A DNA stretch of 64,000 bases from Arenibacter aquaticus (GTDB lineage: Bacteria; Bacteroidota; Bacteroidia; Flavobacteriales; Flavobacteriaceae), in contig NZ_RQPJ01000005.1 of the NCBI RefSeq assembly GCF_003957295.1, positions 430,282 to 494,281 on the forward strand, in the 5' to 3' direction. Shown piece by piece: positions 13,601 to 29,914 of this stretch. Numbering within the stretch: the stretch's first letter is position 1; each line of letters opens with the position of its first letter. Below the pieces are notes generated by a model. That model was not told the DNA's origin and did not search any database. It saw only the letters and a list, made by a program, of their open reading frames with translations. The position numbers were made by a program, and so were the translations under genes.

Positions 13601-14765
13601 TGCAGTAGAAGTAGGAGCATCCGCACAGAAGGTAAACGGAAAGCCACATGCTTTTTTAATAATTGAGGACGAAGGGGTAGGGATTTCATCTGAAGAACAA
13701 AAACTGATATTTGAACGCTTCCAAACACTGGGCGAAAATCCGTCTGTCGGGACTGGTATTGGGCTTGCGCTTTCCAAAGAGTTGGTGGAGGCCCATCATG
13801 GAAAATTAAAACTTACCTCTGTCCCCGGAAAGGGTAGCACCTTTACGGTAATTTTACCTTTGGGTACCGCACATTTTACTGATGAGCAATTATCCAATAC
13901 TACCAACCACCACATACCAATAACCTCAACGCAAAAACAAGATCTTCAAAAAGAAGTTTTCCCCAACTTAGACACTATTAAAGAATTTAACTCAGCATCC
14001 GATTACACCGTTTTAATCGTAGAAGACGAGGATGATATACGTGAATTTATAGCGAACGAAATGTCTGATTACTTTAAGGTGTTGACCGCTAATAATGGCC
14101 AGGAAGGGATTCAAAAAGCAATTGAAGCAATACCAGACTTAGTGCTCTCCGATGTTTTGATGCCAAAGACAACAGGACTGGAACTTTGCAAGAGCCTTAA
14201 GAACAACCTACAAACCAGTCATATCCCTATTATTCTATTAACCGCCTTATCTGATGAAGAAAGTCAGGTACAAGGCTTAAAAGAGGGAGCGGAAGACTAT
14301 ATAACCAAACCATTTAGCATAAATGCCCTATTCTTTAAAATTAGGTCGATTATAGAAAATAGAAAGCTAAGCTCACAAAGATATCAGATAGAGACGGTAA
14401 TGAAACCAAAGGAGTTGGCACAATCCACACCAGACAAGGACTTCTTGGAACAGACCGTAAAAATAATACATAACAATATTTCGGAGCCCAACTTCACTAT
14501 AGATAAATTGGTTGTTGAATTGGGCATGAGCAGAACTCCTTTCTTTAAAAAGATCAAAAGCCTGACCAATTTGACCCCGAACGAATTTTTAAAAATTGTC
14601 CGTTTGCGGCATGCTGCGCAGCTTCTATTGAAAACTGAAATGAATATATCGGAGATAAGTTTTGAAGTTGGGTTTTTGTCCGCTAAATACTTTCGATCAA
14701 CCTTTAAAAAACAGTTTGGGGAAACACCTTCAAGTTATAGGGAAAAGAGAATAAAGGTATCCTGA
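10677..14765 (+). CDS. Hybrid two-component sensor histidine kinase / AraC response regulator (HTCS)
   Basis: One-protein signalling system that senses a glycan breakdown product in the periplasm and activates the locus. Counting from the ATG at 10677 (1362 residues): signal segment, two propeller domains of Reg_prop repeats (about 45-690, many W-[IL]-GT motifs such as GFIWIGTRNGLYKYDG), a Y_Y_Y domain (about 700-790) and one membrane helix (about 792-815). A HisKA domain follows with phospho-acceptor H847 in LTHELRTPLTMI, then HATPase (about 955-1068, NAIKYS, DEGVGIS, GTGIGLAL). The receiver (about 1110-1225) has D1159 in VLSDVLMP, and an AraC HTH ends the protein (about 1260-1362). Start is uncertain: the TATATTTG box ends four bases before this ATG, and a TTG at 10719 would give a cleaner signal peptide (MKVKVTARNYFFILIAFCC). 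It lies divergent to susC. Confidence 0.95.
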   Translation: MSIRISLFSVPPERLKVKVTARNYFFILIAFCCNIIFGQQAFNNIPFFTLNVKDGLSQNYITCSAQDFEGFIWIGTRNGLYKYDGYHFEQINLKEKGIENNHINCLYRGNDQNLWIGTNQGPVLYDYHSGDITPLFLENGALAKSITTFFQQDKKNIWIGTGEGQLLSYNIANNEIKTYNHPGFKNISNIGMTNTNSLLVGFKYGGLLTFSIKNEKFSVPKGYEKIGGTGINTLIEIKPETFLVVTPKGVFLYKHGVNPLEVQKLKSPTNANALNSVISLLAANKKHIWLGTDGHGILDYTIASGKLEPLHFEGLSPSFSVTSMFKARDNSIWIGTTNQGLKIVNPYKSQFNHWAFEKGNKTGLSSNSVLGLTEDSNGKIVLAMDGGGITIFDPNSRKFEHYFKNSEEKRVVNTVIQDKNNRIWAGTFNHGYHVSRLSSSNFLEPLTLTIPKEIENISVKSFLRDKQNNIWIGTVTGGIYLFDYKNGTIKKFKENNPLVQYSQPYCIYQSSDSKIWFGCYSGLYVYNPKDDSLKEFFPEKGSHFKQVISIEELDGDNLWLGTKTGLYNINRKYNKTTLYTEKQGLPSNVVNSLLVDSSKFLWLGTDKGLSQFNPISKEFRNFGREDGVDGLEFNENAKLKGSDGTLYFGNTNGVYFFHPNQIKNNPNPPEIVLTNFKVTSDNSNISQNTITQHKPVNQVKKIYLNHNQNFFNLHFTALNFTNPNKNQYKYKLLGFDKDWVFTQNGRMATYTNIPPGEYTFMVKASNNDGVWTPTAKSITITILPPWWHTWWARALFALVAIGSIILANTYILKQIKLKNALKIERLEKNNQIQLNEFKTKLFTNLTHELRTPLTMILSPLDKLIATEVKGPESKKQLLSIQRNAHNLLKLINEWLDYRKTTSTQPIIKAVELDLVQFAETIIESFKELAHDKAISIKYTSHSPSINCYFDPSAIQKVISNLISNAIKYSGEGSNIAVEVGASAQKVNGKPHAFLIIEDEGVGISSEEQKLIFERFQTLGENPSVGTGIGLALSKELVEAHHGKLKLTSVPGKGSTFTVILPLGTAHFTDEQLSNTTNHHIPITSTQKQDLQKEVFPNLDTIKEFNSASDYTVLIVEDEDDIREFIANEMSDYFKVLTANNGQEGIQKAIEAIPDLVLSDVLMPKTTGLELCKSLKNNLQTSHIPIILLTALSDEESQVQGLKEGAEDYITKPFSINALFFKIRSIIENRKLSSQRYQIETVMKPKELAQSTPDKDFLEQTVKIIHNNISEPNFTIDKLVVELGMSRTPFFKKIKSLTNLTPNEFLKIVRLRHAAQLLLKTEMNISEISFEVGFLSAKYFRSTFKKQFGETPSSYREKRIKVS

Positions 14766-15145
14766 TCGCCTGTTCCAATGTCCTTTTTTTTAGGACGCTT
14801 GCGGATAAACTTTTTAAGGAGAAAAATGTACAGCATACTTAACCAATAGGCAGTTTTAGAAACTGTCATCACAACCTTTATTTTAACTGAGAATGAATAA
14901 GATAATACTCATCCTTCATTAAAGCCACCTATTTGGGCAGCATGTAAAACAAACGTCCCCACCCCCATACACAGAGTATTCCAACGGTAGTTTCTGTAGT
15001 TCCCTCCCTAGATTCAAAAGACAACACTCCATCTTGCTTCATCACCACAATATACACTTTAACTTTTTCCAAAAGCTGCACCTATTCATGTTCATCCATC
15101 TTAAAACTAGAAATAATGGTATCTTCGGGACAACAATAATGGAAT
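14766..15145. other. 380-bp gap with a possible decayed minus-strand frame
   Basis: No intact gene is seen between the sensor and the DUF2188 gene. Just after the sensor stop, GTCCT-T7-AGGAC forms a small hairpin. On the minus strand a 74-codon frame (15099 to 14878) has protein-like composition but two in-frame TAG codons; it is listed separately. Confidence 0.4.
14878..15099 (-). pseudogene. Possible short gene remnant with two in-frame TAG codons
   Basis: From an ATG at 15099 the frame reads MDEHE, TAG, then a 50-residue stretch including EKVKVYIVVMKQDGVLSFE, a second TAG, then VALMKDEYYLIHSQLK and TAA. The residue mix looks more like a soluble protein than random A+T-rich DNA, but I recognise no family. 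It could be a decayed small gene or chance. A stop-codon recoding explanation is not supported by anything else in the window. Confidence 0.18.
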
Positions 15146-15430
15146 ATGTCGAACGTCAAATCTTGGTTACGAACCCTCATTGACCTTTTGGAAGTCTTTT
15201 TAAACAGCTCGCATCAAAGTAAACGCGGCAGAACTTGGCACCAACATGTTGTGCCCTATAAGGAAGGCTGGGCTGTGCGCCGCGAGGGCAACCAACGTAT
15301 AAGCAGTAAACATAGAAAACAGAGCACGGCCATACGTAAGGCCAAAAGTTTAGCTAAAAAATACAAGGCCGATGTCATTATCCACAGAGCGAGTGGTGGT
15401 ATACGTGACCGGATTAGCTATGATGATTAA
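15146..15430 (+). CDS. DUF2188 domain-containing small protein
   Basis: A 94-residue basic protein. Residues about 31-92 match the DUF2188 pattern: WHQHVVPYKEGWAVRREGN, then ISSKHRKQSTAIRKAKSLAK, then DVIIHRASGGIRDRISYDD. The family is widespread and of unknown function; members are usually 60-80 residues, so the first 30 residues (including LRTLIDLLEVFLNSS) are an extension or indicate a later start, although no later ATG exists in frame. It has no signal peptide and should be cytoplasmic. It stands alone, with about 380-390 bp of non-coding DNA on each side, and shows no operon partner. Family assignment is good; the role is unknown. Confidence 0.8.
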   Translation: MSNVKSWLRTLIDLLEVFLNSSHQSKRGRTWHQHVVPYKEGWAVRREGNQRISSKHRKQSTAIRKAKSLAKKYKADVIIHRASGGIRDRISYDD

Positions 15431-15824
15431 AAAATAAATTCATAAAAGAATACCATTGGGTCTAAAAAAAAGACAATCCGAGTTATTAAGAAGAGTTTTT
15501 TTACATGCCCATATTAAAAATTAATCTGTCCACAAAAAGTCAGTTGGCCATTGATATAAAATCATCAAACAGATCCCAGAAGTTTTACATGATTTTTAAA
15601 ATTATTGGTCTAAAATGAATTATCAGTATTTCTGGAGTTCTCATTGGTAAATACTTAATTCTAAAGGATGTAAATGGTTCTTGAACCACCAATATTCTTC
15701 ACTTCCTAATTAAAAAACTCAAGGTTAATTTTCTTATATTCGGACTTATTAATCAGATTTTGAAGACTGATTATCGCTCTTGGCATACTGCCATGTAGCG
15801 GAGTAACTTTAAAACCAAAGAATA
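15431..15824. other. 394-bp intergenic region upstream of the M81 gene
   Basis: No gene is seen. Two short inverted repeats are present: TGGTTC-TT-GAACCA at 15675-15688, and AATCAG...CTGATT about 75 bp before the M81 start. Either could be a regulator site or a short RNA hairpin. No clear TAnnTTTG box was found. Confidence 0.4.
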
Positions 15825-17396
15825 TTGAAACCGCTTATCCATTGCTATATCTTACTCCTAGTCCTCCTAGCTTCTTGCAAACAAGACAAAAAACAACATG
15901 AATCAGAAAATCTGCCTAAAATCGCCATTGCCGGTTTGGGTATAGAAAGCAGCACCTTTTCTCCTGCCCTGACCCATGAGGACGCCTTTCATGCCAAAAT
16001 AGGTGATTCTATATTTTCCAAATACCCATTTCTCCAAGTAGATTCCTTAAATAGAAAAAGGGCGCAATGGGTACCTACCTTGGTCGGGAAATCTTTGCCA
16101 GGGGGTACGGTTACCAAGGAAGCCTACGAGTCCTTGGTCTCCAAGACCTTAAAATTATTAAAGGAAAATGGTCCTTTTGACGGACTTTTTTTTGATATTC
16201 ACGGAGCTATGAGTGTGGTAGGGATGGATGACCCCGAGGGTGATCTCATAGAACGAATTAGGGAAGTCGTCGGGACCAATGTCCTCATATCCACCTCCAT
16301 GGACCTACATGGAAACGTATCCAAGAAATTAGCTAAACATACCGATTTAATAACTTGTTATAGAATGGCTCCCCACGAGGATGCCATACAGTCCAAAAAA
16401 AGGGCCGTTACCAACCTTTTGGACCGACTTGAAAATGGTATGGGCAAGCCCAAATATAAAGCTTGGATCCCTGTACCCATATTGTTGCCAGGGGAGAAAA
16501 CCAGTACCCGAATTGAACCAGGGAAAAGCCTTTATGCAAAAGTGCCCAATGTGGCCAATAAAGAAGGGGTTATAGATGCTGCTATCTGGATTGGCTATGC
16601 TTGGGCAGACGAACCCCGCAACCATGCCGTAGTTATGGTTACGGGAGACGACAGGGAAAAAGTTAAAGACGGAGCCGAAACCTTGGCTCAAAGCTTTTGG
16701 GATGTACGAAATCAATTTGAATTTGTTGCCCCAACGACCAGCTTGGAAGAAAGCCTAAAGTTGGCACTGGCCAGTAACAAGCATCCATTCATAATCAGTG
16801 ATATGGGAGATAACCCCACTGCTGGTGGTGCGGGGGATGTTACCTGGACCTTGGAACAATTGTTGGAAAGACCCGAATTTAAATCGGACAACGGCCCCTC
16901 CCTGATCTATGCCTCTATCCCTGGTCCAAAATTTGTTGAAAAAGCCATTGAAATAGGTGTAGGCGGAAAAATAAAAGCCACTGCAGGAGCTACAGTGGAC
17001 AGTCGTTTTGCCGGGCCCTTGGAACTGGAAGGTACCATAGAAGCAATCAAATCAGGTGATCGGAATGCAGAAACCGAAGTCGTCGTTAAAATTGGGAGTA
17101 TAATGGTAATCGTTACCAAAAAAAGGAAACCCTACCACCACCTGAGCGATTTTACCAACCTTGGCTTACATCCCAAAAAGACCGACATAATTGTGGTGAA
17201 AATAGGGTATTTGGTCCCAGAACTTTATGACATGCGCGGAGATTGGGTCATGGCATTGACCCCTGGTGGGGTTGATCAGGATATTAACCGACTTGGCTAC
17301 AAACGTATCAAGAGACCTATGTTTCCCTTAGATAGCACCATGGCACAACCAGACTTGAAAGCTCAATTTATTCCCGCCTCCAACGCAACCGAATAA
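15825..17396 (+). CDS. M81 family metallopeptidase (MlrC-like), predicted lipoprotein
   Basis: Homologue of MlrC, the zinc metallopeptidase that finishes linearised microcystin breakdown; most M81 proteins act on unknown substrates. The 523-residue product starts at a TTG (15825), as no in-frame ATG precedes the signal, which reads HCYILLLVLLASC, a clear lipobox. M81 features follow: GLGIESSTFSP near the N terminus, FFDIHGAMSVVGMDDPEGD, the metal-binding MDLHGNVSKK, and CYRMAPHEDA. The C-terminal domain includes ISDMGDNPTAGGAGD and GVGGKIKA, and the protein ends near LYDMRGDWVMALTPGGVDQD. A lipidated, exported M81 protein is unusual because characterised members are cytoplasmic. Its neighbour downstream is an AraC regulator 440 bp away. 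Family assignment is strong; the substrate is unknown. Confidence 0.9.
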   Translation: MKPLIHCYILLLVLLASCKQDKKQHESENLPKIAIAGLGIESSTFSPALTHEDAFHAKIGDSIFSKYPFLQVDSLNRKRAQWVPTLVGKSLPGGTVTKEAYESLVSKTLKLLKENGPFDGLFFDIHGAMSVVGMDDPEGDLIERIREVVGTNVLISTSMDLHGNVSKKLAKHTDLITCYRMAPHEDAIQSKKRAVTNLLDRLENGMGKPKYKAWIPVPILLPGEKTSTRIEPGKSLYAKVPNVANKEGVIDAAIWIGYAWADEPRNHAVVMVTGDDREKVKDGAETLAQSFWDVRNQFEFVAPTTSLEESLKLALASNKHPFIISDMGDNPTAGGAGDVTWTLEQLLERPEFKSDNGPSLIYASIPGPKFVEKAIEIGVGGKIKATAGATVDSRFAGPLELEGTIEAIKSGDRNAETEVVVKIGSIMVIVTKKRKPYHHLSDFTNLGLHPKKTDIIVVKIGYLVPELYDMRGDWVMALTPGGVDQDINRLGYKRIKRPMFPLDSTMAQPDLKAQFIPASNATE

Positions 17397-17836
17397 TTAT
17401 AGACCAGCTAATTCTAAAACCGTTTAAAGGCTACAACTCCCTGTGATACCTAAACTAGTTTTTATTACAATCTAGTTGTTCCAATTCTGACTTATTTCGA
17501 CAGCTAATTTCAGAATTTCTGTGTCACTGGATTTTACCATGTTATTTGTCTTTTAAGAATATTCTTCTGGGGGTACTGGTATTTGAGTATTACATAATCA
17601 TATAGTAGCTCACAATTACCCCAACTAAACTGTATTTAGAACCATCGCTATACAAACCCAACAATTGACCCCGGGTCAGTTTTTAGCAATGCTACAACTA
17701 CCCAGTCATTATCCCCCCCTATTTCCTTTTAGGTACCCGAAACGGCTTTTAGAATAATGAATCCCCAATGGGCATAGGTGAACATAGGCCATATACCATT
17801 TTATTATTATCAAAAAATCACTATTCTTGTAACATT
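17397..17836. other. 440-bp intergenic region between M81 and AraC genes
   Basis: No gene is seen. A perfect 12-bp palindrome AAGAATATTCTT lies at 17555-17566 and could be a dimeric regulator site. The region also holds the start choice of the AraC gene: an in-frame ATG at 17768 would add 23 residues that do not resemble the family. Confidence 0.4.
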
Positions 17837-18706
17837 ATGAAATCGGCCATCCGTAAATTTCCTATCCCCAATACAAAATGCCTAAAGGTAAAGCAACTTG
17901 TTGAGCCCCACTTTGATCCTACTTGGCATTTCCACCCGGAATTTCAACTTGCCTGTGTGTTCCAAGGAACTGGGACCCGCTATGTAGGTGATGATATCAG
18001 CCAATTTGATTCAGATGATATGGTCTTGACAGGCGCCAACCTACCCCATGTTTGGAGAAGTGATGACAAATACTTTGAGAATAAGGGATTAAGTACAAAA
18101 GTTATAGTAACCTACTTTTCTCCTGATTTTATGGGCGATATTTTCTTAAACAAGGATGAGATGGCTAGAATTAAACAACTACTAATTTCTGCTGATAGAG
18201 GTATAGAGATCGTTGGCAATACAAAAAAAAAGATTCGTAAAATAGTCCAAAAAATGTACCGGCAAGAAGGTTTTGAAGAAGTCCTGTCCCTTTTGCACAT
18301 TTTGCATATACTGTCTACCTCCAACGATTTGCGCATGATAAACAAACAAGGTTATGTAAACAGGGTTTCCGATTCGGATTCCACAAGGATGCAGCTGGTG
18401 CATAATTATATTCTAAATCATTATAAAACAGAAATTAGATTGGAGGAGATTGCTAAACTGGCGAATATGGCCCCCAATTCGTTCAGTCGCTATTTTAAGT
18501 CCAGGACCAATAAATCTTTTACCGATTTTATAGCGGAGCTAAGGATAAGCATGGCTTGTAAATTATTAAAATCAAACAATCAATCCGTTATTCAGATTGC
18601 ATACGAATGTGGTTATAAAACCCTTTCCAATTTTAACAAGAAATTTAAGGAGATTACAGGTACAACCCCAAAAATGTACAGAAAGAATTATCTACAAATT
18701 CTTTGA
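17837..18706 (+). CDS. AraC family transcriptional regulator with cupin sensor domain
   Basis: DNA-binding regulator that likely senses a small sugar-like ligand. From the ATG at 17837 the product is 289 residues. The N-terminal cupin domain (about 10-130) includes VEPHFDPTWHFHPEFQLACV and a DMVLTGANLPHVWRSD strand typical of AraC sensors in Bacteroidota. The C-terminal double HTH (about 185-289) includes RLEEIAKLANMAPNSFSRYF and VIQIAYECGYKTLSNFNKKF followed by TGTTPKMYRK. The alternative ATG at 17768 adds residues not seen in relatives. The gene converges with the long dehydrogenase-like gene (48 bp gap) and follows the M81 gene, so it may regulate either; this is inferred from proximity. 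Confidence 0.92.
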   Translation: MKSAIRKFPIPNTKCLKVKQLVEPHFDPTWHFHPEFQLACVFQGTGTRYVGDDISQFDSDDMVLTGANLPHVWRSDDKYFENKGLSTKVIVTYFSPDFMGDIFLNKDEMARIKQLLISADRGIEIVGNTKKKIRKIVQKMYRQEGFEEVLSLLHILHILSTSNDLRMINKQGYVNRVSDSDSTRMQLVHNYILNHYKTEIRLEEIAKLANMAPNSFSRYFKSRTNKSFTDFIAELRISMACKLLKSNNQSVIQIAYECGYKTLSNFNKKFKEITGTTPKMYRKNYLQIL

Positions 18707-18754
18707 TCTTCAATTAATGGTGCAACTTACAAACGCATAATTCCAGGGTTACCG

Positions 18755-21700
18755 TTATTTTATCCAAACGACACTATTTTTAAGGATTGTCCGATACGCT
18801 TTTAATCCATGGGCCCTTTCATCATGCCCCAAGGTATTTCCAATAATTTTAGCCTTGGGATGCTTTACCACCCATACTACTGGGTACTCTTTTCCAGATT
18901 GTAACCCCCTGCCTACTGCCAAAACTTCTATTTCAGCATCAGGGTCTTTTTCCCATCTATAAAGTTCATCAGTGATCCTAAAAGTCGAAGGAACCCCTTT
19001 CATTAAAGGGTGATTAGGTTTTATAACTTTTACCTCAAATTCTTGAAGTTTCTCATGGGATCTAGATCCTCCGCCAACAAGTGTTTTGTTATATTCTGGC
19101 CAATCTTCCCAATTGTACCAAGTACTTGGGTGATAGATCAGCATATTCATCTTACCCTGATTTACCCTGGTCATAACAGCATTTTTGGTATTAATATCCA
19201 AGGGCTTGTTATTGCTAAGAAAAAGAATATCGGTAGACGGTATCAGGGCTCCCAGTTCCCTAGGGTTCTCAGTGTAAATCACAGTATTCTTGCCTCCTTC
19301 ACTGAGCACCTTACCATCGGCGATACCAAAATACTTAAGAAAGTCATGGGAGCCACCGCCTCCCATTACAGTAATTTTTGGGGCATCTTTATTTTCTGAA
19401 ATGTACGATCCGGGAGCCGTTACTATGATAACGCCTTGCATCATTCGCCAATGACCCGGAAAAGTACATACATAGGGGTAGATACCAGGAGTATCCGGTA
19501 GTTTTAATACAACAGACCCCTTAGCTCCCGGAGTCAACATATCCGTAGCTCCCAATACGTATCTTGATTTGGGGACATATCCATATTTTTCGGCTTCAGG
19601 ATTTTTTAGGAATCCATCTACCATAGCTCCAAAAGCATCTAGGCTACCTGGTTGAATAACCACCAAATTATGGGACATTTGATCCCTGTTGTTCAAAACA
19701 ATTTCTACGGTCTGACCAGCCGTGGCGCGGAGGGTTTTCTTATCAAAAGCCATCTCTTGATTCACGGTATTAAGAACAAAGGTAACATCGGCCTTCACCT
19801 TACCAACTTTGCCTATACCCATATCTATATGCTGATTACCTCCCGTATTAACACAGTGAACGGCAATTAGATTCTTGCCTTTAGTAAACAATTTACCTTT
19901 CTCCTTGTCCAGTTTTATGTATTTATAAGTCTCACTAGAGCCGGTTTCTGATATTAAAAGCTGTCCGTTAATATAAATTTCATAATCGTCATCATGGGCT
20001 ATTTTTATTACAGGCTCCGTCATATCATCATGGATAACCACCTCTTTCCGCATCCAAATATCATTGCTGCTCCATGGGGTGTTCACCTGTTTCATATTAT
20101 CACCACCAAACTTGGCAGCCCCTTTTTTCCAATTAGAATCATCGAATTCCCATTTCGTCCAATCAGCTGTAGGCTTTACAGTAGTATAGTTCCAGATAGA
20201 TTTTTTTTCTTCTGCCGAAGGCACTGTCATAACCACGGAAGAAGGGTCCACTTCCTCAAAGTTCAATTCCCTGAAATAAATCTTTATAGCGGCATTGAGC
20301 CATTTGTCCGAAGTAATAGCTGGATCCTTGGCCAACTTTTCTATTTCGGTGTACAAGGCGTTGGATTCTGGCAATTCCCCCGCCCGTAAAATGGCAGCGA
20401 GCTTTATCTGTGCATCCGGACTGTTCAATACGCCCGATTGGGCCAGGATCTTACTACTTTCCCGGGTGGTCGGCAATAAAGCGAGAGCAGCACGTTGCAC
20501 GGCATAGGAACTACTGTTCAATGCGCCAACAGCCAATTGGTTAGCCTCATCATTGGAGCCACTCAACGCGCCCAACCCTTTTAAGGTCCATAGGGCATGT
20601 AAAGCCGAGGCGTTAAGTCCACTTTTATTGTTATTGTCCGCAGCTAATTCTATTAGATCTGGTATAAGGGATACTTTCTTATTTTCCACTATCAAACGCT
20701 GAGCTGTGGTCCTCCAAAACATATTGTCGCTCTTAAGAGCTTCTAGAAGTTTTTTATCATCCTTAGGGTTCAAGGAGCCAATATCAGGGTCTTCCGCATC
20801 CTCATGGGTAATTCTGTATATTCTACCATGTCCATAATCGCGCAACTTGTTTTTATGGGCATTGCCTTCTCCTTTTTCCGCATTCCATATTTGGTTTTCC
20901 ATACCCCGTTTATCCGGGTTGTGCTGAATTACCGGGTTGTACCAGTCTGCGACCCACAAATTGCCGTCAGGACCTGTTTCTGTAAAAACCGGTGCGGTCC
21001 AGGCATCGGTACTGGCAAAAATATTTCCTCCATCAACCTCTTTATACCCTGCCCCATCCCTTACAATTTTTGCTATATGTACCAAATGACCTGTAGGCTC
21101 ACAAACATACATTTGGTTCCAATATTCTTTAGGATAGTTTCTTGCGGTATAAAAATTGGCTCCTGAAGCCGCTGTATACCCCCCACGCACATCAACCTGT
21201 TGCAAGGGAATGGTATCTACCGGACTTATTTCGTAATGCCCTTGAATAAAATCTGCATTAACGGCCCATGAGGGTAGTTTATTTAAGTAGTTGTAATGCT
21301 TTAATGGAATGCCTACAAAACAACAGTGGTTATTGTTGGCGGTAGATCCAAATACTTCAAAGTTTTCATTAAAACCCAATCCCCAAGTATTGTTGTTAAA
21401 TTGTCCCACAGGTTCAAAGTAAGAACCGTCTTTGGTAAATTTGTAGACCCCCATTTTAAATTCCACAGGTTTTCCTTGGAACTGATTCTCAAAACCGGAA
21501 TAGCCTACGGCACCCCAGATCATATTATCCAATCCATAGTGCAAATTTGATGGTCCCGCATGAGTGTCCCAAGTTCCGAACCCATCAAACAGAACGGTGG
21601 TTTTGTCCATTTTGTCGTCCCCATCCGTATCCTCCAAGAAAACCATATTTGGAGCCTGTGCTACAATGGCACCTCCTTTTACCAAGGTAATGCCCGTTGT

Positions 21701-22087
21701 TAAATTTTGCTCGGTTGCAAAATCAGTAAAGGTATCTGCCTTCCCATCGCCATTGGTATCCTCACAAATGGTAATTCTATCACCCCCAACATCATTGGCC
21801 AATCCATGTGGATAATCTTTGGACTGTACTACCCATAGTCTTCCCCTTTCATCCCAAGTAAAGGCTATAGGATTAATGATATTGGGCTCAGCGGCATATA
21901 GCTCTGCCTTGAATCCTTCTGGAAGTTGAATGTGTTTTTGGGAATCCTCCGGACTCAAAGGGTTTTGTACCCGTGGGGTTTCACCTGTATATGTCAATGG
22001 CGGAGGCGGCTCTTTTTCCCCAGAACAACTAAACATGAAGACCATACCACAACATAGTGGTAAAATGTAGGCAGTTATAATTTTCAT
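18755..22087 (-). CDS. Multidomain lipoprotein: dehydrogenase-like propeller, HEAT, jelly-roll, azurin-type copper and ThuA-like domains
   Basis: From the ATG at 22087 the product is 1110 residues and starts with a lipoprotein signal (FMFSC, C21). Domains in order: a sugar-dehydrogenase-like beta-propeller of the PVC/planctomycete membrane-dehydrogenase type (about 35-430, LPEGFKAELYAAEPNIINP, FTWDERGRLWVVQSKDYP), and HEAT-like repeats (about 440-600). A galactose-binding-like jelly-roll follows (about 625-760, HDDDYEIYINGQLL), then a blue-copper domain with ligands H806, C874, H879 and M883 (YVCTFPGHWRMMQG), and a C-terminal ThuA-like domain (about 895-1110). Relatives often carry a CxxCH cytochrome c domain; none is present here, so the copper domain probably takes the electron-carrier role. 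It is last in a minus-strand cluster after a cupin and a TIM barrel. It probably oxidises a sugar or polyol in the periplasm; the substrate is unknown. Confidence 0.85.
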   Translation of the reverse strand: MKIITAYILPLCCGMVFMFSCSGEKEPPPPLTYTGETPRVQNPLSPEDSQKHIQLPEGFKAELYAAEPNIINPIAFTWDERGRLWVVQSKDYPHGLANDVGGDRITICEDTNGDGKADTFTDFATEQNLTTGITLVKGGAIVAQAPNMVFLEDTDGDDKMDKTTVLFDGFGTWDTHAGPSNLHYGLDNMIWGAVGYSGFENQFQGKPVEFKMGVYKFTKDGSYFEPVGQFNNNTWGLGFNENFEVFGSTANNNHCCFVGIPLKHYNYLNKLPSWAVNADFIQGHYEISPVDTIPLQQVDVRGGYTAASGANFYTARNYPKEYWNQMYVCEPTGHLVHIAKIVRDGAGYKEVDGGNIFASTDAWTAPVFTETGPDGNLWVADWYNPVIQHNPDKRGMENQIWNAEKGEGNAHKNKLRDYGHGRIYRITHEDAEDPDIGSLNPKDDKKLLEALKSDNMFWRTTAQRLIVENKKVSLIPDLIELAADNNNKSGLNASALHALWTLKGLGALSGSNDEANQLAVGALNSSSYAVQRAALALLPTTRESSKILAQSGVLNSPDAQIKLAAILRAGELPESNALYTEIEKLAKDPAITSDKWLNAAIKIYFRELNFEEVDPSSVVMTVPSAEEKKSIWNYTTVKPTADWTKWEFDDSNWKKGAAKFGGDNMKQVNTPWSSNDIWMRKEVVIHDDMTEPVIKIAHDDDYEIYINGQLLISETGSSETYKYIKLDKEKGKLFTKGKNLIAVHCVNTGGNQHIDMGIGKVGKVKADVTFVLNTVNQEMAFDKKTLRATAGQTVEIVLNNRDQMSHNLVVIQPGSLDAFGAMVDGFLKNPEAEKYGYVPKSRYVLGATDMLTPGAKGSVVLKLPDTPGIYPYVCTFPGHWRMMQGVIIVTAPGSYISENKDAPKITVMGGGGSHDFLKYFGIADGKVLSEGGKNTVIYTENPRELGALIPSTDILFLSNNKPLDINTKNAVMTRVNQGKMNMLIYHPSTWYNWEDWPEYNKTLVGGGSRSHEKLQEFEVKVIKPNHPLMKGVPSTFRITDELYRWEKDPDAEIEVLAVGRGLQSGKEYPVVWVVKHPKAKIIGNTLGHDERAHGLKAYRTILKNSVVWIK

Positions 22088-22166
22088 TGTTTTCTCTTTT
22101 AATTCTATAATTACTCTAATCAAACCCAATTGGATCGCTTAATGAAAGGGTTAATTTTTTAGTCGC

Positions 22167-22577
22167 TCAAATTCTCGGACGATACTGGCAATAGGGAACT
22201 TTTTCACTTACATCTATTGTTCCGGCCTCCCACCCATTGGGAGGGGATAAAATTGCCAAAAATTCCAATTCTTCATCTCCCGCATTGAAGGTACCGTGGG
22301 CAACATTTGCACCTATATAAACAGAGTCACCCGCTTCAAGTAGCTGCATCTCTCCTTCTACCCACTGTTCGGCGGTGCCTTTAAGTATATAAAGAATTTC
22401 ATGCATTGCCGGATGCAGGTGAAAATTATGGCCACCTCCTTTGGGCACCACCACCTTCACCATATAGGAGTCTGCCTGTTCTATAATATCGGGATGATAG
22501 TGCCAATGATGTACTCTCCCAATAATCTTTTCCAACATTAGGCCCTTCTCCCTTACAAATTTCCAATTCCTTTCCAT
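22167..22577 (-). CDS. Cupin domain-containing protein
   Basis: A 136-residue single-domain cupin. Metal-site motifs are visible: GGGHNFHLHPAMHEILYILKG (His-x-His and Glu of motif 1) and the second motif around DSVYIGANVAHGTFNAGDEE. It has no signal peptide, so it should be cytoplasmic. Small cupins of this kind serve as sugar isomerases, dioxygenases or ligand-binding proteins; the sequence does not decide. It starts 7 bp after the end of the TIM-barrel gene and precedes the multidomain lipoprotein by 79 bp, which suggests one operon and a shared pathway. Confidence 0.88.
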   Translation of the reverse strand: MERNWKFVREKGLMLEKIIGRVHHWHYHPDIIEQADSYMVKVVVPKGGGHNFHLHPAMHEILYILKGTAEQWVEGEMQLLEAGDSVYIGANVAHGTFNAGDEELEFLAILSPPNGWEAGTIDVSEKVPYCQYRPRI

Positions 22578-22584
22578 GGGTTAA

Positions 22585-23445
22585 CTATAGGGTCAATGCC
22601 TTAAATTCCTTGGTCAAATTGGTCAATGACTGTTCTACCCCCATTCTTTCCAAGGAAGAGGCCCCCACAAAACCGTGCAGGCCCTTGCAATGTTCCAGAA
22701 CGTATTTTACATCGGCAGGGGTATTGATCGGACCGCCATGGGCCAACAAAAATGCATTGGGATTTGCCTTCTTTACGGCGTCCACAATTTTTTGGGTACG
22801 CTCCAGGGCATCATCCATTGAGGCAGTAGCGTTTGTAACCCCAATAGATCCACCTACTGTTGTCCCCACATGGGCAATTATAGCATCCGCACCCACATCG
22901 GCCATTTGTACGGCCTCTTCGGGCTTCCCCACATAAACTACTGAGAAGAGGTCCATTTTGGTGGCCAGATCTACCATTTGCACTTCTTTTTGAAAGCTCA
23001 TTCCTGTCTCTTCCAATACGTTTCTAAAGTGACCATCAATAATGGAATGGGTAGGAAAATTATTTACCCCGGAGAACCCCATGTCCTTTACTTTTCCAAG
23101 GAAATGCCACATCCTTCTCCTTGGGTCGCTACCGTGTACACCACATATCACCGGAACCTCCTCTACCACCGGAAGCACTTCAAACTCTCCAATCTCCATG
23201 GCCACCGCATTGGCATCGCCATAGGCCATCATACCGGCCGTAGAACCGTGCCCGGACATTCTAAACCTACCAGAATTGTAAATAATGATCAAATCCGCAC
23301 CTCCCTTTTCTATAAATTTAGCGCTAATTCCCGTTCCTGCACCTGCGGCAATAATTGCTTTTTTTTGATCTATCACTTTTTGCAACCTGTCTCTCACCTC
23401 CTTTTTCGTATAAGGGTTTCCTTTCCCTGTCCATGGATTCGGCAT
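22585..23445 (-). CDS. Phosphoenolpyruvate hydrolase-like TIM-barrel protein (PF09370 family)
   Basis: A 286-residue protein of the TIM-barrel signal-transduction / PEP hydrolase-like family, related to the PEP mutase superfamily. Visible features are IIAAGAGTGISAKFIEKGGA, IIYNSGRFRMSGHGSTAGMM, PVICGVHGSDPRR, VNNFPTHSIIDG, IIAHVGTTVGGSIG and LLAHGGPINTPADV, all characteristic of the family. In many bacteria this domain is encoded beside, or fused to, a Tm-1-like ATP-binding domain (UPF0261); no such partner is present here. It is the first gene of the minus-strand cluster with the cupin and copper-containing lipoprotein. Members are proposed to act in sugar or aromatic catabolism, but the reaction remains uncertain. 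Confidence 0.87.
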   Translation of the reverse strand: MPNPWTGKGNPYTKKEVRDRLQKVIDQKKAIIAAGAGTGISAKFIEKGGADLIIIYNSGRFRMSGHGSTAGMMAYGDANAVAMEIGEFEVLPVVEEVPVICGVHGSDPRRRMWHFLGKVKDMGFSGVNNFPTHSIIDGHFRNVLEETGMSFQKEVQMVDLATKMDLFSVVYVGKPEEAVQMADVGADAIIAHVGTTVGGSIGVTNATASMDDALERTQKIVDAVKKANPNAFLLAHGGPINTPADVKYVLEHCKGLHGFVGASSLERMGVEQSLTNLTKEFKALTL

Positions 23446-23907
23446 ATTCTTTTATTTTATGATTAACTGATTTTTGGTTAAAATTGATTTCTAGCAGTTG
23501 TTTTATTTGCAATTGAAGTAATTTGAAATGGACCTTTACTCCCAATTTCGCGCACCATATTAAAACCGTCTATTGTTTTGAGGCAATCAAAACTTATTGC
23601 CACCAAAAGGACACGATTTTACATATTGACCGATTAACTGCCAATTCCATAACAAATGTTGTAATTAATCTCTATAAAAGAAATCTGCATTTCACCCAAA
23701 ACTGACTGTTTAAAACCATATTATTCATAAAACAAGTATATAAACAGCATAATCAAGAGTGGTTTAGAACTAATCAAGCCTACTGCTTGTATTGAAAGGA
23801 CTAGAATCCTACCTATTACTTTAGGGATTTTTAACAATTAAGATTTCGTTAATATAAAATTAGCCCTAAAAACGGTACTTTAGAAAAAACCTAAACACCA
23901 CCCACCA
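23446..23907. other. 462-bp divergent intergenic region
   Basis: No convincing gene. It lies between the divergent PEP-hydrolase-like cluster and the efflux operon. TACTTTAG near 23876 resembles a Bacteroidota -7 box (one mismatch) about 25 bp upstream of the efflux start. Confidence 0.35.
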
Positions 23908-25338
23908 TTGCAGATTTCAAACACTTCCTTAAAGTTAAAACCGCAATTCAAACTAAAAGGAATATATAAGTCCCTTCTAATTTGTTTTTCCATAACCGCT
24001 CTGGCCTTTTTTGGCTGTTCCCCCAAATTATCCCACATAACCCCGCCCATTGGAGTAATAAAAGAATTTTCAAATAGTGGTAATGGTATTTTGGAAGATA
24101 AGTGGTGGACTGCCTTTAATGATGAACAACTGAATATCCTAATTGATTCAGCATTACAGTCCAACCTAAACTTAGCCGCTACCTGGCAGCAATTTTTATC
24201 GGCCAAGGCCGTAGTGGCCCGGGAAGCCTCCAATAAATGGCCGCAGATAGAAGCCTCGGCGCAATCGGCCATAAATTTACCGGAACCCGATTTTGTGGGT
24301 GGTGAAAATACGCAATTGGGTCTCTCCGCCAATTATGAAATTGATTTATGGGGCCGCATAGGCACTGCTGTGCAAGCCGAGAAATTAAGAGCAGATGCAA
24401 GCCTGTATGATTACCGTACTGCAGCTATTTCCCTCTCTGCTGAAATTGCTTCAACTTGGTACCAACTCATAGCTGCAAAAAAGCAATTGCAGATTACGAG
24501 GGACCAAATTGCCACGAACGAGGACATTATAAAACTAATAAGGTCCCGGTTTGTGGGCGGCCAAATTAGGGCCGTAGATATTCTAAGGCAAGCCCAACTC
24601 TTGGAAAGTACCAAAGAACAGGAAATAATCTTTGAAACCAATGTGGCTCTTCTGGAAAATCAATTGGCTGTACTTATAGGTAAGCAGCCGCAGTCCAGTA
24701 TAGTGTTCAAAACCACCCAATTACCCGTTCTTCCAGCATTACCGGCAACCGGTATGCCCTTGGAACTTATTAGGCGTAGACCGGACATACAACAATCCTA
24801 TGCCCAATTATTGGCTACTGATAGGGATATGGCTTCGGCCGTACGCAGTAAATACCCAAGATTATCGGTAAGCGGAAGGGGGCAATTACGATCCAATAGT
24901 TTTAAAAACCTCTTTGATAATTGGGCCTATACCCTGGCCGGAAATATTTTGGCCCCTCTGTTTTATGGCGGACAGCTAAGTGCGGAGGTAAATAGAACCA
25001 AAGCTCTAAAACAACAGCGCCTTTTGGAGTACGGACAGATCACTTTGGAGGCATTTCAGGAAGTTGAAAATGGTTTGGTACAGGATGTAATGCAAAAGCA
25101 ACGGGTAGAAAATATTGCCCGGCAATTACAGCTTGCCGAAAAAAGCAACCGGCAGTTGCGAATAGAATTTTTAAATGGTTTTAGTCCCTATTTGGATGTA
25201 CTCATCGGTTTGGATGCGGAACAGCAATTACGAAGGGATTATATACAGGCCCAAAGGCAACGCATTCAGATACGGATTGGGCTATACAGGGCTTTGGCGG
25301 GAAGTTTTGAAACCGAAAGGGAATTTAGCAACCAATAG
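23908..25338 (+). CDS. TolC-like efflux outer-membrane lipoprotein (NodT family)
   Basis: Outer-membrane exit duct of a tripartite RND pump. The 476-residue product starts at TTG 23908, since no ATG precedes the lipoprotein signal (LLICFSITALAFFGC). It carries two outer-membrane efflux repeats: DKWWTAFNDEQLNILIDSAL near residue 65, NYEIDLWGRIG, then the second half with PLELIRRRPDIQQSYAQLLA and LEAFQEVENGLVQDV. These are standard NodT-family signatures. It is the first gene of a three-gene operon, 12 bp before the membrane-fusion protein. No dedicated TetR- or MarR-type regulator lies beside it. Substrate specificity cannot be inferred. Confidence 0.93.
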   Translation: MQISNTSLKLKPQFKLKGIYKSLLICFSITALAFFGCSPKLSHITPPIGVIKEFSNSGNGILEDKWWTAFNDEQLNILIDSALQSNLNLAATWQQFLSAKAVVAREASNKWPQIEASAQSAINLPEPDFVGGENTQLGLSANYEIDLWGRIGTAVQAEKLRADASLYDYRTAAISLSAEIASTWYQLIAAKKQLQITRDQIATNEDIIKLIRSRFVGGQIRAVDILRQAQLLESTKEQEIIFETNVALLENQLAVLIGKQPQSSIVFKTTQLPVLPALPATGMPLELIRRRPDIQQSYAQLLATDRDMASAVRSKYPRLSVSGRGQLRSNSFKNLFDNWAYTLAGNILAPLFYGGQLSAEVNRTKALKQQRLLEYGQITLEAFQEVENGLVQDVMQKQRVENIARQLQLAEKSNRQLRIEFLNGFSPYLDVLIGLDAEQQLRRDYIQAQRQRIQIRIGLYRALAGSFETEREFSNQ

Positions 25339-25350
25339 AAAAACGACTTT

Positions 25351-26559
25351 ATGAGCAATAAAAAAATACTGTGGATATGTTTGGCAATTCTACTTGGAGG
25401 CATTGCCATTACCACCTTAATTTTCTCTACAGAACCTGAAGCACAAACCGAAGGGGCAAGTATTGAAACGGCAATGTTAGTAGACGTAATAAGGGTACAA
25501 AGTGGCACTTACAAACCAATAATAGTGGCTACAGGCAATGTACAGCCCGTGGAAGATGTTATATTAAGTCCGTTGGTTTCTGGACAGATTATCAGAAGGG
25601 ATCCTGCCTTTAGCCCAGGTGGTTTTGTAAGAAAAAACCAAGTACTCTTACAGATAGACCCCTCCGATTACAAAAACACCCTAGAACTAAGAAAGAGTGA
25701 ATTACTGCAATCACAGACTACCTTGGACACTGAAATGGGCCGTCAACAAATTGCGGAACAAGACTTAAAACTTATAACGAACGATTCCCTTTTTGGAAGC
25801 GACCCGCTATCTGAAAGTGAGCGTCAACTGGTGTTGAGGCAGCCACAACTCAATGCTGTTAAGGCTACCATCCTAGGTGCCAAGGCCTCAATGGAACAAG
25901 CTCAACTAAATTTGGAACGAACTACCATTCGCGCTCCTTTTGATGCCCATATCCTGAGTCAAAATGTTACCCGGGGATCACAAGTTGGCCAAGGGGATAA
26001 TTTGGGCCGACTTGTGGGAACGGACTATTACTGGGTTACTGCAACGGTACCGGTCTCCAAACTGCAATGGTTACGTTTTCCCAATAATGACACGGAAAAG
26101 GGAGCAATGGTCCATATTACCAATAGTACAGATTGGCCGCAAGGTCTTTATCGAGAAGGCTATCTGGACAAACAGATAGGGGCGTTGGACGGACAAACAC
26201 GCTTGGCACGTATACTGATCAAAGTAGCGGACCCCCTCTCCAAAAGCACCCCTCTTAAAGAAAAACCAAAGCTTATGATAGGCACTTTTGTAGAGGTCAA
26301 CATCCAAGCAAACCCCATAAAAAATGTAGTGCGACTTAAAAGAGATTATGTGCGAAGCAATAACACAGTTTGGGTAATGAAAGATGGGAAATTGGAAATT
26401 CGCAATGTAGATATTGAGTTGACCGATAATGAGTACGCTTATATTCAGAGTGGCCTAAATGAAGGTGAACAGGTCGTTATCACAGATTTGAGTACGGTGA
26501 GCAATGGCATTGGGCTTAGGACCCGTTCTGCGGGAACCGAGAACGAAATGAAAGAATAG
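25351..26559 (+). CDS. RND efflux periplasmic adaptor (HlyD/AcrA family)
   Basis: Membrane-fusion protein linking the inner-membrane pump to the outer-membrane duct. The 402-residue product has an N-terminal hydrophobic anchor (about 5-27). The lipoyl/barrel-sandwich hybrid is marked by [20 protein letters not shown] and, after a coiled-coil hairpin (about 110-190), by [20 protein letters not shown] beta-barrel domain (about 225-320) and a membrane-proximal domain (about 330-395, [20 protein letters not shown]) complete it. It lies 12 bp after the duct gene and 7 bp before the pump gene. Confidence 0.95.
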
Positions 26560-26566
26560 CAAAGCC

Positions 26567-29500
26567 ATGGAACAGAGGAAAATAAAAGACAATAATAAAC
26601 CTAGAAGGGACGGGGCTATAGCCTATATGGCCAAAAACTCCATAGCTACCAATCTCCTAATGTTGGTTCTTTTGGGCGGTGGTATTTTTACAATGTTCAA
26701 CATACAGAAGGAAGTCTTTCCGGAATTTCAACTGGATTTTGTAGAGGTTTCCGTGGCCTACCCTGGTGCTTCCCCTGCTGAAGTGGAACAGGGTATTCTG
26801 CAACCCGTGGAGGAGGCTGTCCGGGCCGTACAAGGCATTAAGGAAATTGTTTCCGAGGCCAACGAGGGATCGGGACAGATCAGCATTGAACTTGTTGCAG
26901 GATCAGAGCGCATGAAAGCCTTTCAGGATATAGATCAGGCCATTAATCGCATACGTACCTTCCCCGACGATATTGAACAACCCGTTGTAAGCCTTCAATC
27001 GCGCCAGCGAGATGTACTTCAAATAGGGCTTTATGGCAAGGCTGACATTTGGACCTTACGTCAACTTGCCGAAAGGTTGCGCACTATACTGCTAAACAAC
27101 CCTAAAATTACACAGGTGGAATTAGGAAATGTTCCGGATTATGAAACCCGTATTGAGATTCCGCGCCACACCCTGCAAAAATACAATCTTACACTGGGAC
27201 AGGTGGCAGATATTATTGAACAGAGCAGCAATGACGTGCCGGCAGGGGCAGTACAAACCCAAAGCGGGGAAATATTACTCCGGATGCAGGAGCGTAAACA
27301 ATGGGCAGATGAATATGGAAATATCACCGTTGTCTCCTCACCATCAGGTGCCAACCTAGCCTTAAAGGATATTGCTACCATAACCGATGGTTTTGAAGAA
27401 ACCGGATTTCACGGGCAATTTAATCAAGAAAACTATGTGGAATTGAGGATCTTCCGTATAGGGGACCAATCCCCTTTGGAGATTGCAGATGCCGTGGAGC
27501 ATATTATGGAAGATTTCCAACTTCCGCCAGGCATCAATTACCGTACAGACAGTAATAGAGCCGCAGATTATCGTGAACGACTATCGCTATTGACCGAAAA
27601 TGGTATTCTGGCCATTATTATTGTACTCATCATCCTAACGCTTTTCTTGGAGTACCGTTTGGCCTTTTGGGTAATGATGGGTATGACGGTCTCCTTTGTT
27701 GGAGGAATGATATTGCTGCCAATTATCGGAATAAGTGTAAATATGATTTCCATGTTTGGTTTTTTGGTGGTATTGGGTATTGTAGTTGATGATGCCATTG
27801 TGGTGGGAGAGAATGTGTACGAATACCGTCAAAAGGGGTTAAGCCCCATAAAAGCTGCTATTGCAGGCACAAAAGACGTTTCCCTACCGGTGGTCTTTAG
27901 TATCATGACTACCATCATAGCTTTTGTACCCCTGCTATTTATGCCCGGGGAAACAGGTAAATTCTGGCAGCCCTTGCCGGCAGTTGTAATTGTTATTTTG
28001 GCTGTCTCCCTTTTGGAAGCCTTATTTATTCTTCCCTCCCATTTGGCACATCTTAAAAAAGAAACAAATAAAAATAAATGGGTCCTTAAACTTGAGGGTT
28101 GGCAACGTTCTTTTGCCAAAAGTTTTGATCGTTTTGTTGAAAATCATTATCGCCCACTGCTCGACTTGTGTTTACAATACCGATATATAACCCTCAGTGC
28201 GGCGGTGGCACTTTTGCTCATTGTTGGGGGCTTTGGCTATAGTGGCCATATGGGAATGATCATGATGCCAGAAGTAGCGGCGGACGAAATAGAGGCCGGT
28301 GTACGTCTTCCGGTAGGCACTACACCAGATCAGGCTGCCAAGGTAGCACATGCCATTTCCAGTTCTACACAACGTATGTTCGAGGAGCACAATCTTTATG
28401 AAGTTGCCGAAGGAATCAAAACCAACGTACGGGGACAGAACTTTATAGACGTCGAAATTGTGATGTTGCCCCCAGATCAACGAGACATCACAGCTGGAGA
28501 AGTTATCGCTTTGTGGCGTGATAATATTGGGGATATTGAAGGAGTGGATCAAATTACATTTGAGGCAGAAAGAGGACCTGGTGGTGCTAGACAGGCTATA
28601 AGCATTGACCTCAGCCATTCGGACATCAATGTACTGGAAAAGGCCAGCTCGGCCTTCGTAGAACGAATGAAGGCTTTTTCCAACACCCGGGATGTAACCG
28701 ATAATTACAACAAGGGAAAAATGCAGTTCGACTTTACATTGTTGCCCCAAGGCAGAAATTTGGGGCTCACCTCAGACGAGGTGGGCCGACAGGTACGTGA
28801 TGGTTTTTTTGGGGCCCTGGCAATGAGACAACTAAGGGGAATGAACGAAATAGAAGTTCGGGTAAAATTGCCACTTGATGAACGTAAGGACATACAAAAT
28901 TTGGAAAATTTTCTTATTCGTACCCCTGATGGAATTGAAGTTCCCTTAATGGATGTTGTTGAAGTAACCCAACGGGAAGCCTTCACCAGCATCAACCGGA
29001 GGGATGGCAGGAGAATTGTCAATGTTGGTATGGATGTAGAACCCGCCAATACGGTTACCAGGGTCATCAACATGGTACAGGAAGAAACCCTCCCCCAATT
29101 ACGTGCCGATTTTCCGGGTATTACATGGAGCTTTGAAGGCAGTCAGGCCGATATGAGAGAAAGCACCAACACCCTTAGGGCTGGCTTTACCATAGCCATG
29201 GGCCTTATATATGTCTTACTGGCCATAGCCTTTAGCAGTTATACACAACCCTTGATTGTCATGACCGCCATTCCTTTTGGCATAGTTGGGGCCGTAATAG
29301 GACATATCTTGTTGGGATACGACCTGTCCCTGGTAAGTTTAATGGGCGTAATAGCCCTATCCGGTGTTGTTGTGAACGATTCTTTGATTATGATAGATTA
29401 TGCCAATAAACGAAGGAAGGAAGGAAATCCTATTTATACTTCCATCCATGAGGCGGGAATAAGAAGGTTTCGCCCAATTATCCTAACGACTATGACAACC

Positions 29501-29740: not shown

Positions 29741-29800
29741 AACAAAATGTGGGTAAAATACCAAAGAAAAACTTAAACCCCTTAATAAAAAAATACAATA

Positions 29801-29836
29801 GGGCCTATATTAATTCTACACGGTGAATATAGCCCC
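29801..29836. terminator. Inverted repeat between efflux operon and receiver gene
   Basis: GGGCCTATATT and AATATAGCCCC form an 11-bp stem with one C-C mismatch in the gap between convergent genes. There is no clean T-run on either side, so terminator function is only possible. Confidence 0.35.
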
Positions 29837-29914
29837 TTAAGCCATTTTAAAAGAAAAAGTCCGTACCATACTCTTAACCCTAGATCTCCCTTAAACAGTA
29901 CATGCCCAGGCTGT

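Follow-up and report, generated by a model that had tools for sequence, protein, structure and literature searches.

A dehydrogenase-like lipoprotein with a type-1 copper domain belongs to a conserved gene set with a cupin and a Tm-1-related TIM barrel in Arenibacter aquaticus

Introduction

Propeller-fold sugar dehydrogenases are known from the sGDH and aldose sugar dehydrogenase family (PF07995), of which the sGDH-type enzymes oxidize C1 (PMC6881810), and from family AA12, where the pyranose dehydrogenase is fused to an electron carrier, cytochrome b (PMC6881789). In the oxidative pathway for deoxyribose, a suspected periplasmic oxidation with cytochrome c is followed by uptake through a major facilitator superfamily (MFS) carrier, cleavage of a beta-keto acid and glycerate kinase (PMC6365646). 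The PVC-type heme-binding CxxCH proteins (TIGR02604, PF23500) have a related N-terminal domain, and auracyanin and azurin are free copper proteins. Plants fuse a UPF0261 domain with a PF09370 TIM barrel in Tm-1, a protein known for blocking tomato mosaic virus, and UPF0261 and PF09370 proteins are widespread. Of 504 bacterial genomes that have the TIM domain, 491 were reported to have UPF0261 too, in a study that also describes the pairing and co-evolution of the two, and findings on full-length Tm-1 suggest another function (PMC5028733); a literature search on the names UPF0261, PF09370 and Tm-1 returned no bacterial function in titles or in the beginnings of abstracts. The present work concerns three minus-strand genes of Arenibacter aquaticus, encoding a PF09370 TIM barrel, a cupin and a multidomain lipoprotein, that lie within a stretch of 64,000 nucleotides (the window; contig NZ_RQPJ01000005.1, positions 430,282 to 494,281).

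The locus resembles each of these systems in part. The lipoprotein is like the sGDH and AA12 enzymes in its predicted propeller fold and in an equivalent of sGDH Asn229; unlike them, it carries a cupredoxin as candidate electron carrier, along with HEAT-like, jelly-roll and ThuA domains. Its N-terminal domain scores above both curated cut-offs of the PVC-type proteins, from which it differs in having a type-1 copper domain in place of a CxxCH site. That copper domain has the fold and all four ligands of auracyanin and azurin, but is built into a protein of 1110 residues. The TIM barrel is of the family found in UPF0261-PF09370 pairs and in Tm-1, and a UPF0261 gene is present in the same genome; unlike in those pairs, however, the TIM gene in the window lies apart from UPF0261 and is tied to the cupin and the dehydrogenase-like lipoprotein. 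In plan the system recalls the deoxyribose pathway (probably periplasmic oxidation, MFS uptake, carbon-carbon cleavage, glycerate kinase), with another dehydrogenase, another carrier and another cleavage enzyme. The parts are thus known; a literature search whose scope excluded most subscription papers turned up neither the combination nor its conservation nor a link to the two halves of Tm-1.

Results

A conserved gene set

The three genes are separated by gaps of 7 and 79 bp, exactly as originally described, and encode the TIM barrel (286 residues, PEP_hydrolase-like, 22585-23445), the cupin (136 residues, 22167-22577) and the lipoprotein (1110 residues from its ATG, 18755-22087, or 1124 if an in-frame TTG upstream is used as start). 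In a draw of 199 genomes of the same family the TIM protein was matched in 8, UPF0261 was found in the same 8, and a close form of the lipoprotein (at least 62% identity over a 281-residue stretch of jelly roll and cupredoxin, a stretch matched at any level in 93 of the 199) again occurred in the same 8. Two identical sets of 8 among 199 would have a probability of 1.9e-14 if genomes were independent; genomes are related, so this figure gives a scale only. A survey of the genus placed TIM and UPF0261 together in the same 16 of 18 genomes, and every TIM-bearing genome of the two surveys (8/8 and 16/16) thus has UPF0261.

Gene order was compared in the best 80 of 233 related loci, a choice that favors close relatives in the counts; 46 are from Bacteroidota, and 33 of the 34 others are Verrucomicrobia by title. 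Gene calls were based on open reading frames (ORFs) and were not curated; the ORF maps had no TIM call in 12 loci (by title, 11 Verrucomicrobia and one Proteobacteria), perhaps masked by longer ORFs, and maps from hidden Markov models were used for these instead. Among Bacteroidota the cupin directly follows TIM in 39 of 46 loci, a protein with the DUF7133 (propeller) domain lies downstream in 40 of 43, and UPF0261 is found just upstream of TIM in 32 of the 44 loci having at least 2 kb of upstream sequence. In every locus that has a cupin and enough sequence after it to tell, the lipoprotein is the next gene (37/37). Identity between the window TIM protein and its counterparts in the Arenibacter records among the relatives is 94-97%, and when positions 10001-30000 of the window were compared as DNA with seven Arenibacter loci (one of them, L041, cut), similarity in five was confined to ~18755-23480, i.e. 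the three genes; in L035 the three genes matched piecewise and the neighboring AraC gene was also common to both (17807-18704 covered). Conserved order and genome-level co-occurrence show that the three-gene set is more than chance, and the expectation that the genes would be found together in other genomes was borne out.

The UPF0261 partner and a paralogous cluster

A Tm-1-like partner, which commonly accompanies PF09370 proteins, had been described as missing. This is correct for the locus: the UPF0261 protein of Arenibacter algicola (L029), searched by tblastn over the whole window, gave a best match of E=0.62 inside the lipoprotein gene, while the TIM control was recovered at full length. 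We also considered and rejected the possibility that remnants of a UPF0261, glycerate kinase or esterase gene persist next to the cluster, as the corresponding L029 proteins gave nothing at E 1 and, when the search was repeated at E 10 with the TIM control again at full length, nothing better than the same UPF0261 match. It is not correct for the genome, which has one UPF0261 copy on another contig (G000:C9:382119-382649), nor for most relatives, where the gene stands just upstream of TIM. The copy belongs to a second cluster that comprises AraC, PF06439, DUF7133 with cytochrome c, UPF0261 and TIM (78% identical to that of the window). The same gene plan is therefore present twice in one genome, in one case with cytochrome c and in the other with copper.

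The two types also occur side by side in relatives. In two loci (L050 and L057) dehydrogenase-like proteins of the cytochrome c type and of the azurin type flank one UPF0261-TIM pair, and in Arenibacter certesii (L037) the CxxCH-bearing end of a DUF7133-cluster protein, UPF0261, TIM, an MFS gene, a second TIM, a cupin and the azurin type follow in a row. The latter locus reads as a partial cytochrome c module adjoining a copper module, with one UPF0261 and one MFS gene; its second ThuA copy reads as two ORFs. In a tree of TIM proteins (84 rows, one of them very long; built by a quick method, with copper and heme labels set by hand, and without the seven loci L020-L026, five of them copies of other loci) the 39 copper-linked and 10 cytochrome-linked TIMs require a single change, across a branch with an SH-aLRT support of 86 (not starred); shuffled labels required 9.4 changes on average, and none of 500 shufflings was as low as one.

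Architecture of the lipoprotein and its copper site

The predicted model of the lipoprotein (mean predicted local distance difference test score, pLDDT, 84.3; predicted TM-score 0.75) shows propeller, helical repeats, jelly roll, cupredoxin and ThuA in this order, and the domains originally assigned to the three proteins were all recovered by domain search and model, the HEAT repeats and the jelly roll from the model with Pfam matches under cut-off. A signal stretch (22025-22087) ends in a candidate lipidated cysteine, Cys21, and a cysteine near this position was seen by eye in 29/29 azurin-type rows. The N-terminal region matches PF23500/DUF7133 (E=2.8e-108) and TIGR02604 (E=4e-67; 227.2 bits against a cut-off of 122.2), with the propeller at residues 45-430 (20798-21955). 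Helices in the model define the HEAT-like region at residues 444-604 (20276-20758), for which Pfam HEAT_2 gives E=0.3 and a profile of residues 435-619 matches artificial alphaRep helical repeats (e.g. 4zv6, E=1.9e-8). The jelly roll, residues 618-761 (19805-20236), is all-beta in the model, has a PA14 match under cut-off and no Pfam family above it, and retrieves GH2-type rows in Foldseek.

The copper domain, residues 768-890 (19418-19786), is of azurin/auracyanin type (Copper-bind PF00127, E=6.8e-11; auracyanin A, 2aan, E=1.4e-13; Foldseek TMt 0.85). The candidate ligands H806, C874, H879 and M883 are invariant in 29/29 azurin-type rows (the lipoprotein alignment held 36 of 45 non-redundant rows plus that of the window), so that the structural check for a copper site found the full His-Cys-His-Met type-1 set in a cupredoxin fold. 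The original prediction had noted that the cytochrome c end usual in related proteins is missing; indeed the window lipoprotein contains no CxxCH heme site, and its copper domain stands where the paralogue in the same genome has cytochrome c. In both phyla this propeller is joined to an electron carrier of one kind or another. The cupredoxin-DUF7133 fusion is itself wider than this cluster and not peculiar to it: the window genome encodes a second such protein (L001, C24) in the order ThuA-DUF7133-azurin, with ThuA N-terminal, and azurin regions 39-45% identical to that of the window occur in proteins of ~1035-1197 residues in other genomes of the family.

The C-terminal ThuA-like domain, residues 904-1110 (18758-19378), is well supported (Pfam E=4.9e-22; 79.7 bits against a gathering threshold of 33.4; structural match to 4e5v with Z 22.3, root-mean-square deviation (rmsd) 2.5 and 204 aligned residues). 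A hand count of the 37 azurin-type loci uncut by a contig end gave 26 with ThuA fused and 11 with ThuA encoded by the next gene; contig-cut azurin-side loci (L031, L041, L063, L068, L070, L072) and Bacteroidota loci without an azurin-type neighbor (L062, L071, L086) were left aside. Its recurrence as fused domain, as next gene and as N-terminal domain points to a task that ThuA may share with the rest of the protein.

The propeller

When the predicted propeller was compared with known structures, each of the 16 top-scoring rows (Z 24.0-28.1) was, judging by its title, a glucose, aldose or pyranose dehydrogenase of the sGDH/AA12 kind; they include 3a9g (Z 28.1, rmsd 2.9, 286 aligned), 2ism (Z 26.8), AA12 (26.7), 6jt5 (25.9) and 1qbi (Z 25.3, rmsd 4.0, 307 aligned). 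Sequence identity in these rows is 12-17%, and a sequence profile of the propeller searched against the PDB gave only a weak glucose/sorbosone dehydrogenase row (2g8s, E 0.054) among teneurin rows; the fold claim is therefore drawn from the predicted model and from profile-profile alignment. For the latter, hhalign of the propeller to 11 PF07995 rows from related genomes (taken from 20 loci, L163-L182, nine of which gave no ORF) returned Prob 93 and E 2.8e-7. The set has no sGDH row, and sGDH residue numbers were carried over from the motif; the roles of sGDH and AA12 residues follow PMC6881810 and PMC6881789. N233 is the equivalent of sGDH Asn229 and is kept in 36/37 rows; the pairing appears with default settings, with mact 0 and in global mode, is lost without realignment, and falls in unaligned columns at mact 0.7. 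Together these comparisons support the propeller as a probable remote homologue of PQQ (pyrroloquinoline quinone)-type sugar dehydrogenases, with a modeled fold that fits a dehydrogenase.

The cytoplasmic proteins

The TIM barrel scores 361.5 bits in Pfam against a cut-off of 33.8 (E=2.9e-108) and matches PDB 2p10 with E=1.6e-82. Its model has a middling pLDDT of 70.6; the best structural match is again 2p10 (Z 26.7), followed at Z ~16-18 by IGPS and TrpA barrels and designed proteins on that scaffold, a likeness of fold only. Over 36 Bacteroidota and Verrucomicrobia rows (35 of 45 plus that of the window, all at least 74% identical) 146 of 286 positions are invariant, among them an HGGP stretch, and a glycine-rich turn near the C terminus is conserved. 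Barrel likeness, HGGP and glycine-rich turn suggest that the ligand may be phosphorylated. The cupin (Cupin_2, E=2.5e-18) is of the metal type, with H53, H55, E60 and H94 invariant in 26/26 aligned rows (22 of 40, three plasmid loci and the window). Its matches in the PDB (quercetin dioxygenase, TM1459, KdgF, oxalate decarboxylase and others) are too mixed for a reaction to be read from them. Two cupin genes follow TIM in L073, L074, L076, L078, L081, L085, L089 and L090, and the first two of these loci have a PfkB-type kinase further on. As read from the sequence, TIM and cupin start without a signal peptide, and a division of labor between periplasm and cytoplasm is for that reason a sensible one.

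The UPF0261 protein of a relative matches the Tm-1 structure (3wry, E=9.1e-67) and also 9mpy, a UPF0261 domain protein. UPF0261, TIM and cupin occur together on plasmids of Mesorhizobium, Sinorhizobium and Halobaculum, where no DUF7133 product is found among the annotated neighbors. In six plasmid records opened of 230 that match, UPF0261 adjoins TIM or lies one gene off in all six and is annotated as ATP-binding in five, and the cupin comes next after TIM in three. In Mesorhizobium a Gfo/Idh/MocA oxidoreductase follows UPF0261-TIM-cupin and is perhaps a soluble counterpart of the dehydrogenase.

Linked genes

Of the 46 Bacteroidota loci, 17 have a glycerate kinase gene in the same orientation, compared with 1 of the 34 others (Akkermansiaceae); the genera concerned are Arenibacter, Cellulophaga, Kriegella, Maribacter, Sediminicola and Flaviramulus. 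Because the window genome has only one such kinase, this closeness is not expected by chance, and the linked genes suggest a route that may end in glycerate. Other genes linked in Bacteroidota loci encode MFS carriers (9/46), GH43 enzymes (11), sulfatases (9) and aldose epimerases (9), and several Arenibacter loci have an HpcH/HpaI aldolase and a 2-hydroxyacid dehydrogenase. The enzymes closest to a GH43 example bear various names, including xylanase and arabinase, and no substrate was read from it.

Discussion

A pathway divided by the inner membrane

Gene order, co-occurrence, domain content, copper ligands, the predicted propeller fold and the natural exchange of cupredoxin and cytochrome c are compatible with a carbohydrate-oxidation module split across the inner membrane, in which periplasmic oxidation with a cupredoxin instead of cytochrome c would feed the UPF0261, PF09370 and cupin proteins; this is the most likely of the readings considered, with a probability of roughly 0.4. 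Outside the cytoplasm, the propeller of the lipoprotein would oxidize a sugar, sugar acid or glycoside, and the electrons would leave through its own azurin-type domain rather than through the cytochrome c of the paralogues. The ThuA domain might act on the oxidized product or help its release, and the product would be taken up, possibly by the MFS carrier whose gene is linked in some relatives. Its cleavage in the cytoplasm would fall to the UPF0261/PF09370 pair and the cupin, and a three-carbon product could enter glycolysis through glycerate kinase; by chemical reasoning, C2-C3 hydrolysis of a pentose-derived 3-oxo acid would yield glycolate and glycerate. In the window strain, UPF0261 would be supplied by the second cluster, whose own dehydrogenase-like protein has cytochrome c. 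We infer the oxidation activity, its cofactor, the substrate class, the carbon-carbon cleavage and glycerate as end product from this arrangement. The original prediction of a periplasmic oxidation module using copper electron transfer, linked to cytoplasmic processing, is thus partly supported: co-occurrence, propeller homology, copper ligands and signal-less TIM and cupin speak for it, but the partner is not missing, the cupredoxin fusion is wider than the cluster, and the PQQ site is altered.

A more specific proposal, in which UPF0261 and PF09370 form an ATP-using two-component enzyme that cleaves carbon-carbon bonds of oxidized sugars to a glycerate-level product (such as a kinase acting ahead of a lyase or hydrolase with a phosphate-binding barrel) with the lipoprotein dehydrogenase supplying the substrate, is at present doubtful. 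If true, it would give a metabolic function to an uncharacterized family of bacteria, archaea, fungi and plants, and would define a dehydrogenase class whose built-in carrier is swapped between heme and copper. Short of this, the marine Bacteroidota set, in which a membrane-anchored copper dehydrogenase-like protein goes with two Tm-1-related proteins, offers a handle on the normal role of the Tm-1 family. By tying UPF0261-PF09370 to a protein that resembles carbohydrate dehydrogenases, and frequently to glycerate kinase, it makes function testable with defined substrates, and it presents one dehydrogenase type with two interchangeable carriers, copper and heme, in a single genome.

Several observations weigh against the split-oxidation pathway. 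At position 232, the equivalent of sGDH Arg228, which contacts the PQQ ketone, the residue is N in 31/37 and G in 4/37 rows, so that the Arg is lost, although this pairing is as fragile as that of N233 and likewise disappears without realignment. The stretch D174-T175-H176, kept in 36/37 rows, lies in the loop where the catalytic His (His144) is expected, but in the hhalign alignment the residue opposite the catalytic His of PF07995 is A177, one residue from H176; other PQQ contacts of AA12 are seemingly not kept, as judged by eye. With the Arg228 equivalent lost and the His not exactly paired, neither PQQ use nor the assignment as a dehydrogenase is as firm as the fold would suggest. PqqC was found in none of the 8 carriers, but also in none of 14 control genomes nor in the Sinorhizobium meliloti plasmid used as positive control. 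The order of genes is looser in the 34 loci from outside Bacteroidota (cupin next to TIM in 14/32, DUF7133 downstream in 9/31, UPF0261 near in 7/34), and none of the DUF7133 proteins lying with the TIM gene there has an azurin domain. Glycerate kinase was not found in 29/46 Bacteroidota loci, some of them cut upstream, and that of the window genome lies ~98 kb past the window end, among other sugar genes. Finally, neighbors vary by lineage (GH43, sulfatase and epimerase in some; GH67N-like, HpcH aldolase and 2-hydroxyacid dehydrogenase in others), and the substrate is therefore not fixed.

Because the PQQ site is altered, the lipoprotein is not filed as a PQQ enzyme. The structural check of the propeller thus upheld a sugar-dehydrogenase fold, with best matches of the PQQ kind, but left the PQQ-site residues altered or insecurely aligned, which together with the low identity sets the lipoprotein apart from the sGDH and AA12 enzymes. 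PQQ synthesis was dropped as a test of the cofactor, since its positive control was silent and it is evidence neither way; matches to PqqE were all below cut-off and equal in all 14 controls. PQQ synthesis is reported to be absent from Bacteroidota with PqqU, which are presumed to scavenge the cofactor (PMC12124388).

Alternative readings

A special case of the split-oxidation pathway, with oxidation at another position, is a 3-keto-glycoside route in which 3-keto sugars arise in the periplasm, are processed there by ThuA or PF06439 proteins, and are handled as 3-keto sugar or acid by UPF0261, TIM and cupin. A PF06439 3-keto-disaccharide hydrolase gene adjoins the dehydrogenase-like gene in the cytochrome c twin of the same genome and lies beside DUF7133 in L045 and L062 as well; a PF06439 protein has been proposed as a 3'-ketolactose hydrolase acting with a periplasmic lactose 3-dehydrogenase (PMC9007349), and the Mesorhizobium oxidoreductase is of the Gfo/Idh/MocA kind. 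The window cluster itself, however, is without PF06439, L045 is the only one among the named azurin-type loci to have it, and the oxidation site of sGDH-type enzymes is C1; this route is somewhat unlikely.

It is also unlikely that the propeller is a lactonase or binding domain and no dehydrogenase, the copper domain taking electrons from another enzyme or storing copper. Lactonase, gluconolactonase, HHIP and DFPase propellers score next after the dehydrogenases, at Z 22-23 and thus little below 24-28, and the lost Arg228 equivalent, the His that is one residue off in the profile alignment and the blank search for PQQ-synthesis genes (blank in controls too) would all agree with it. A lactonase or binding domain is less easily reconciled with 16 best structural rows that are sugar dehydrogenases without exception, with the retained Asn229 equivalent, or with electron carriers attached to this propeller in both phyla.

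Less probable still is that TIM and UPF0261 sense a small molecule or work as a regulatory pair and are not catabolic enzymes. PF09370 is also named TIM-barrel signal transduction (annotation; PMC5028733), and in Qingshengfaniella a PEP hydrolase family gene of 1749 bp near one of normal size is consistent with a longer fusion. Against a sensor stand the resemblance of the TIM barrel to phosphate-binding synthases, the AraC gene already present beside the operon, and the 146 of 286 invariant positions, which in rows at least 74% identical are only suggestive of an enzyme site. Chance neighbors without joint function can be dismissed, for although local order is lost in part of the Verrucomicrobia loci, chance adjacency is ruled out by the identical eight-genome sets and the 37/37 cupin-lipoprotein order, and the azurin-linked TIM genes fall on one side of a branch in the TIM tree.

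Neighboring genes

The convergent neighbor of the lipoprotein gene is an AraC-family gene, a candidate regulator, at 17768-18706 on the plus strand (HTH_18 E=2.4e-22), and an AraC homologue stands beside the set in L035, L039, L049, L054, L056 and L066 also. An M81/MlrC-family protein with a lipoprotein-like start (15825-17396, plus strand) is encoded beside the cluster and, with the settings used, clusters with no gene of the other loci. Upstream of the set, where many relatives have UPF0261 and glycerate kinase, the window has what looks, from its sequence, like a resistance-nodulation-division (RND)-type efflux operon (23908-29740, plus strand). On the far side lies a polysaccharide-utilization locus (938-14765), whose minus strand carries GH20, alpha-L-fucosidase-like, SusD and SusC-like genes and whose plus strand encodes a hybrid two-component regulator.

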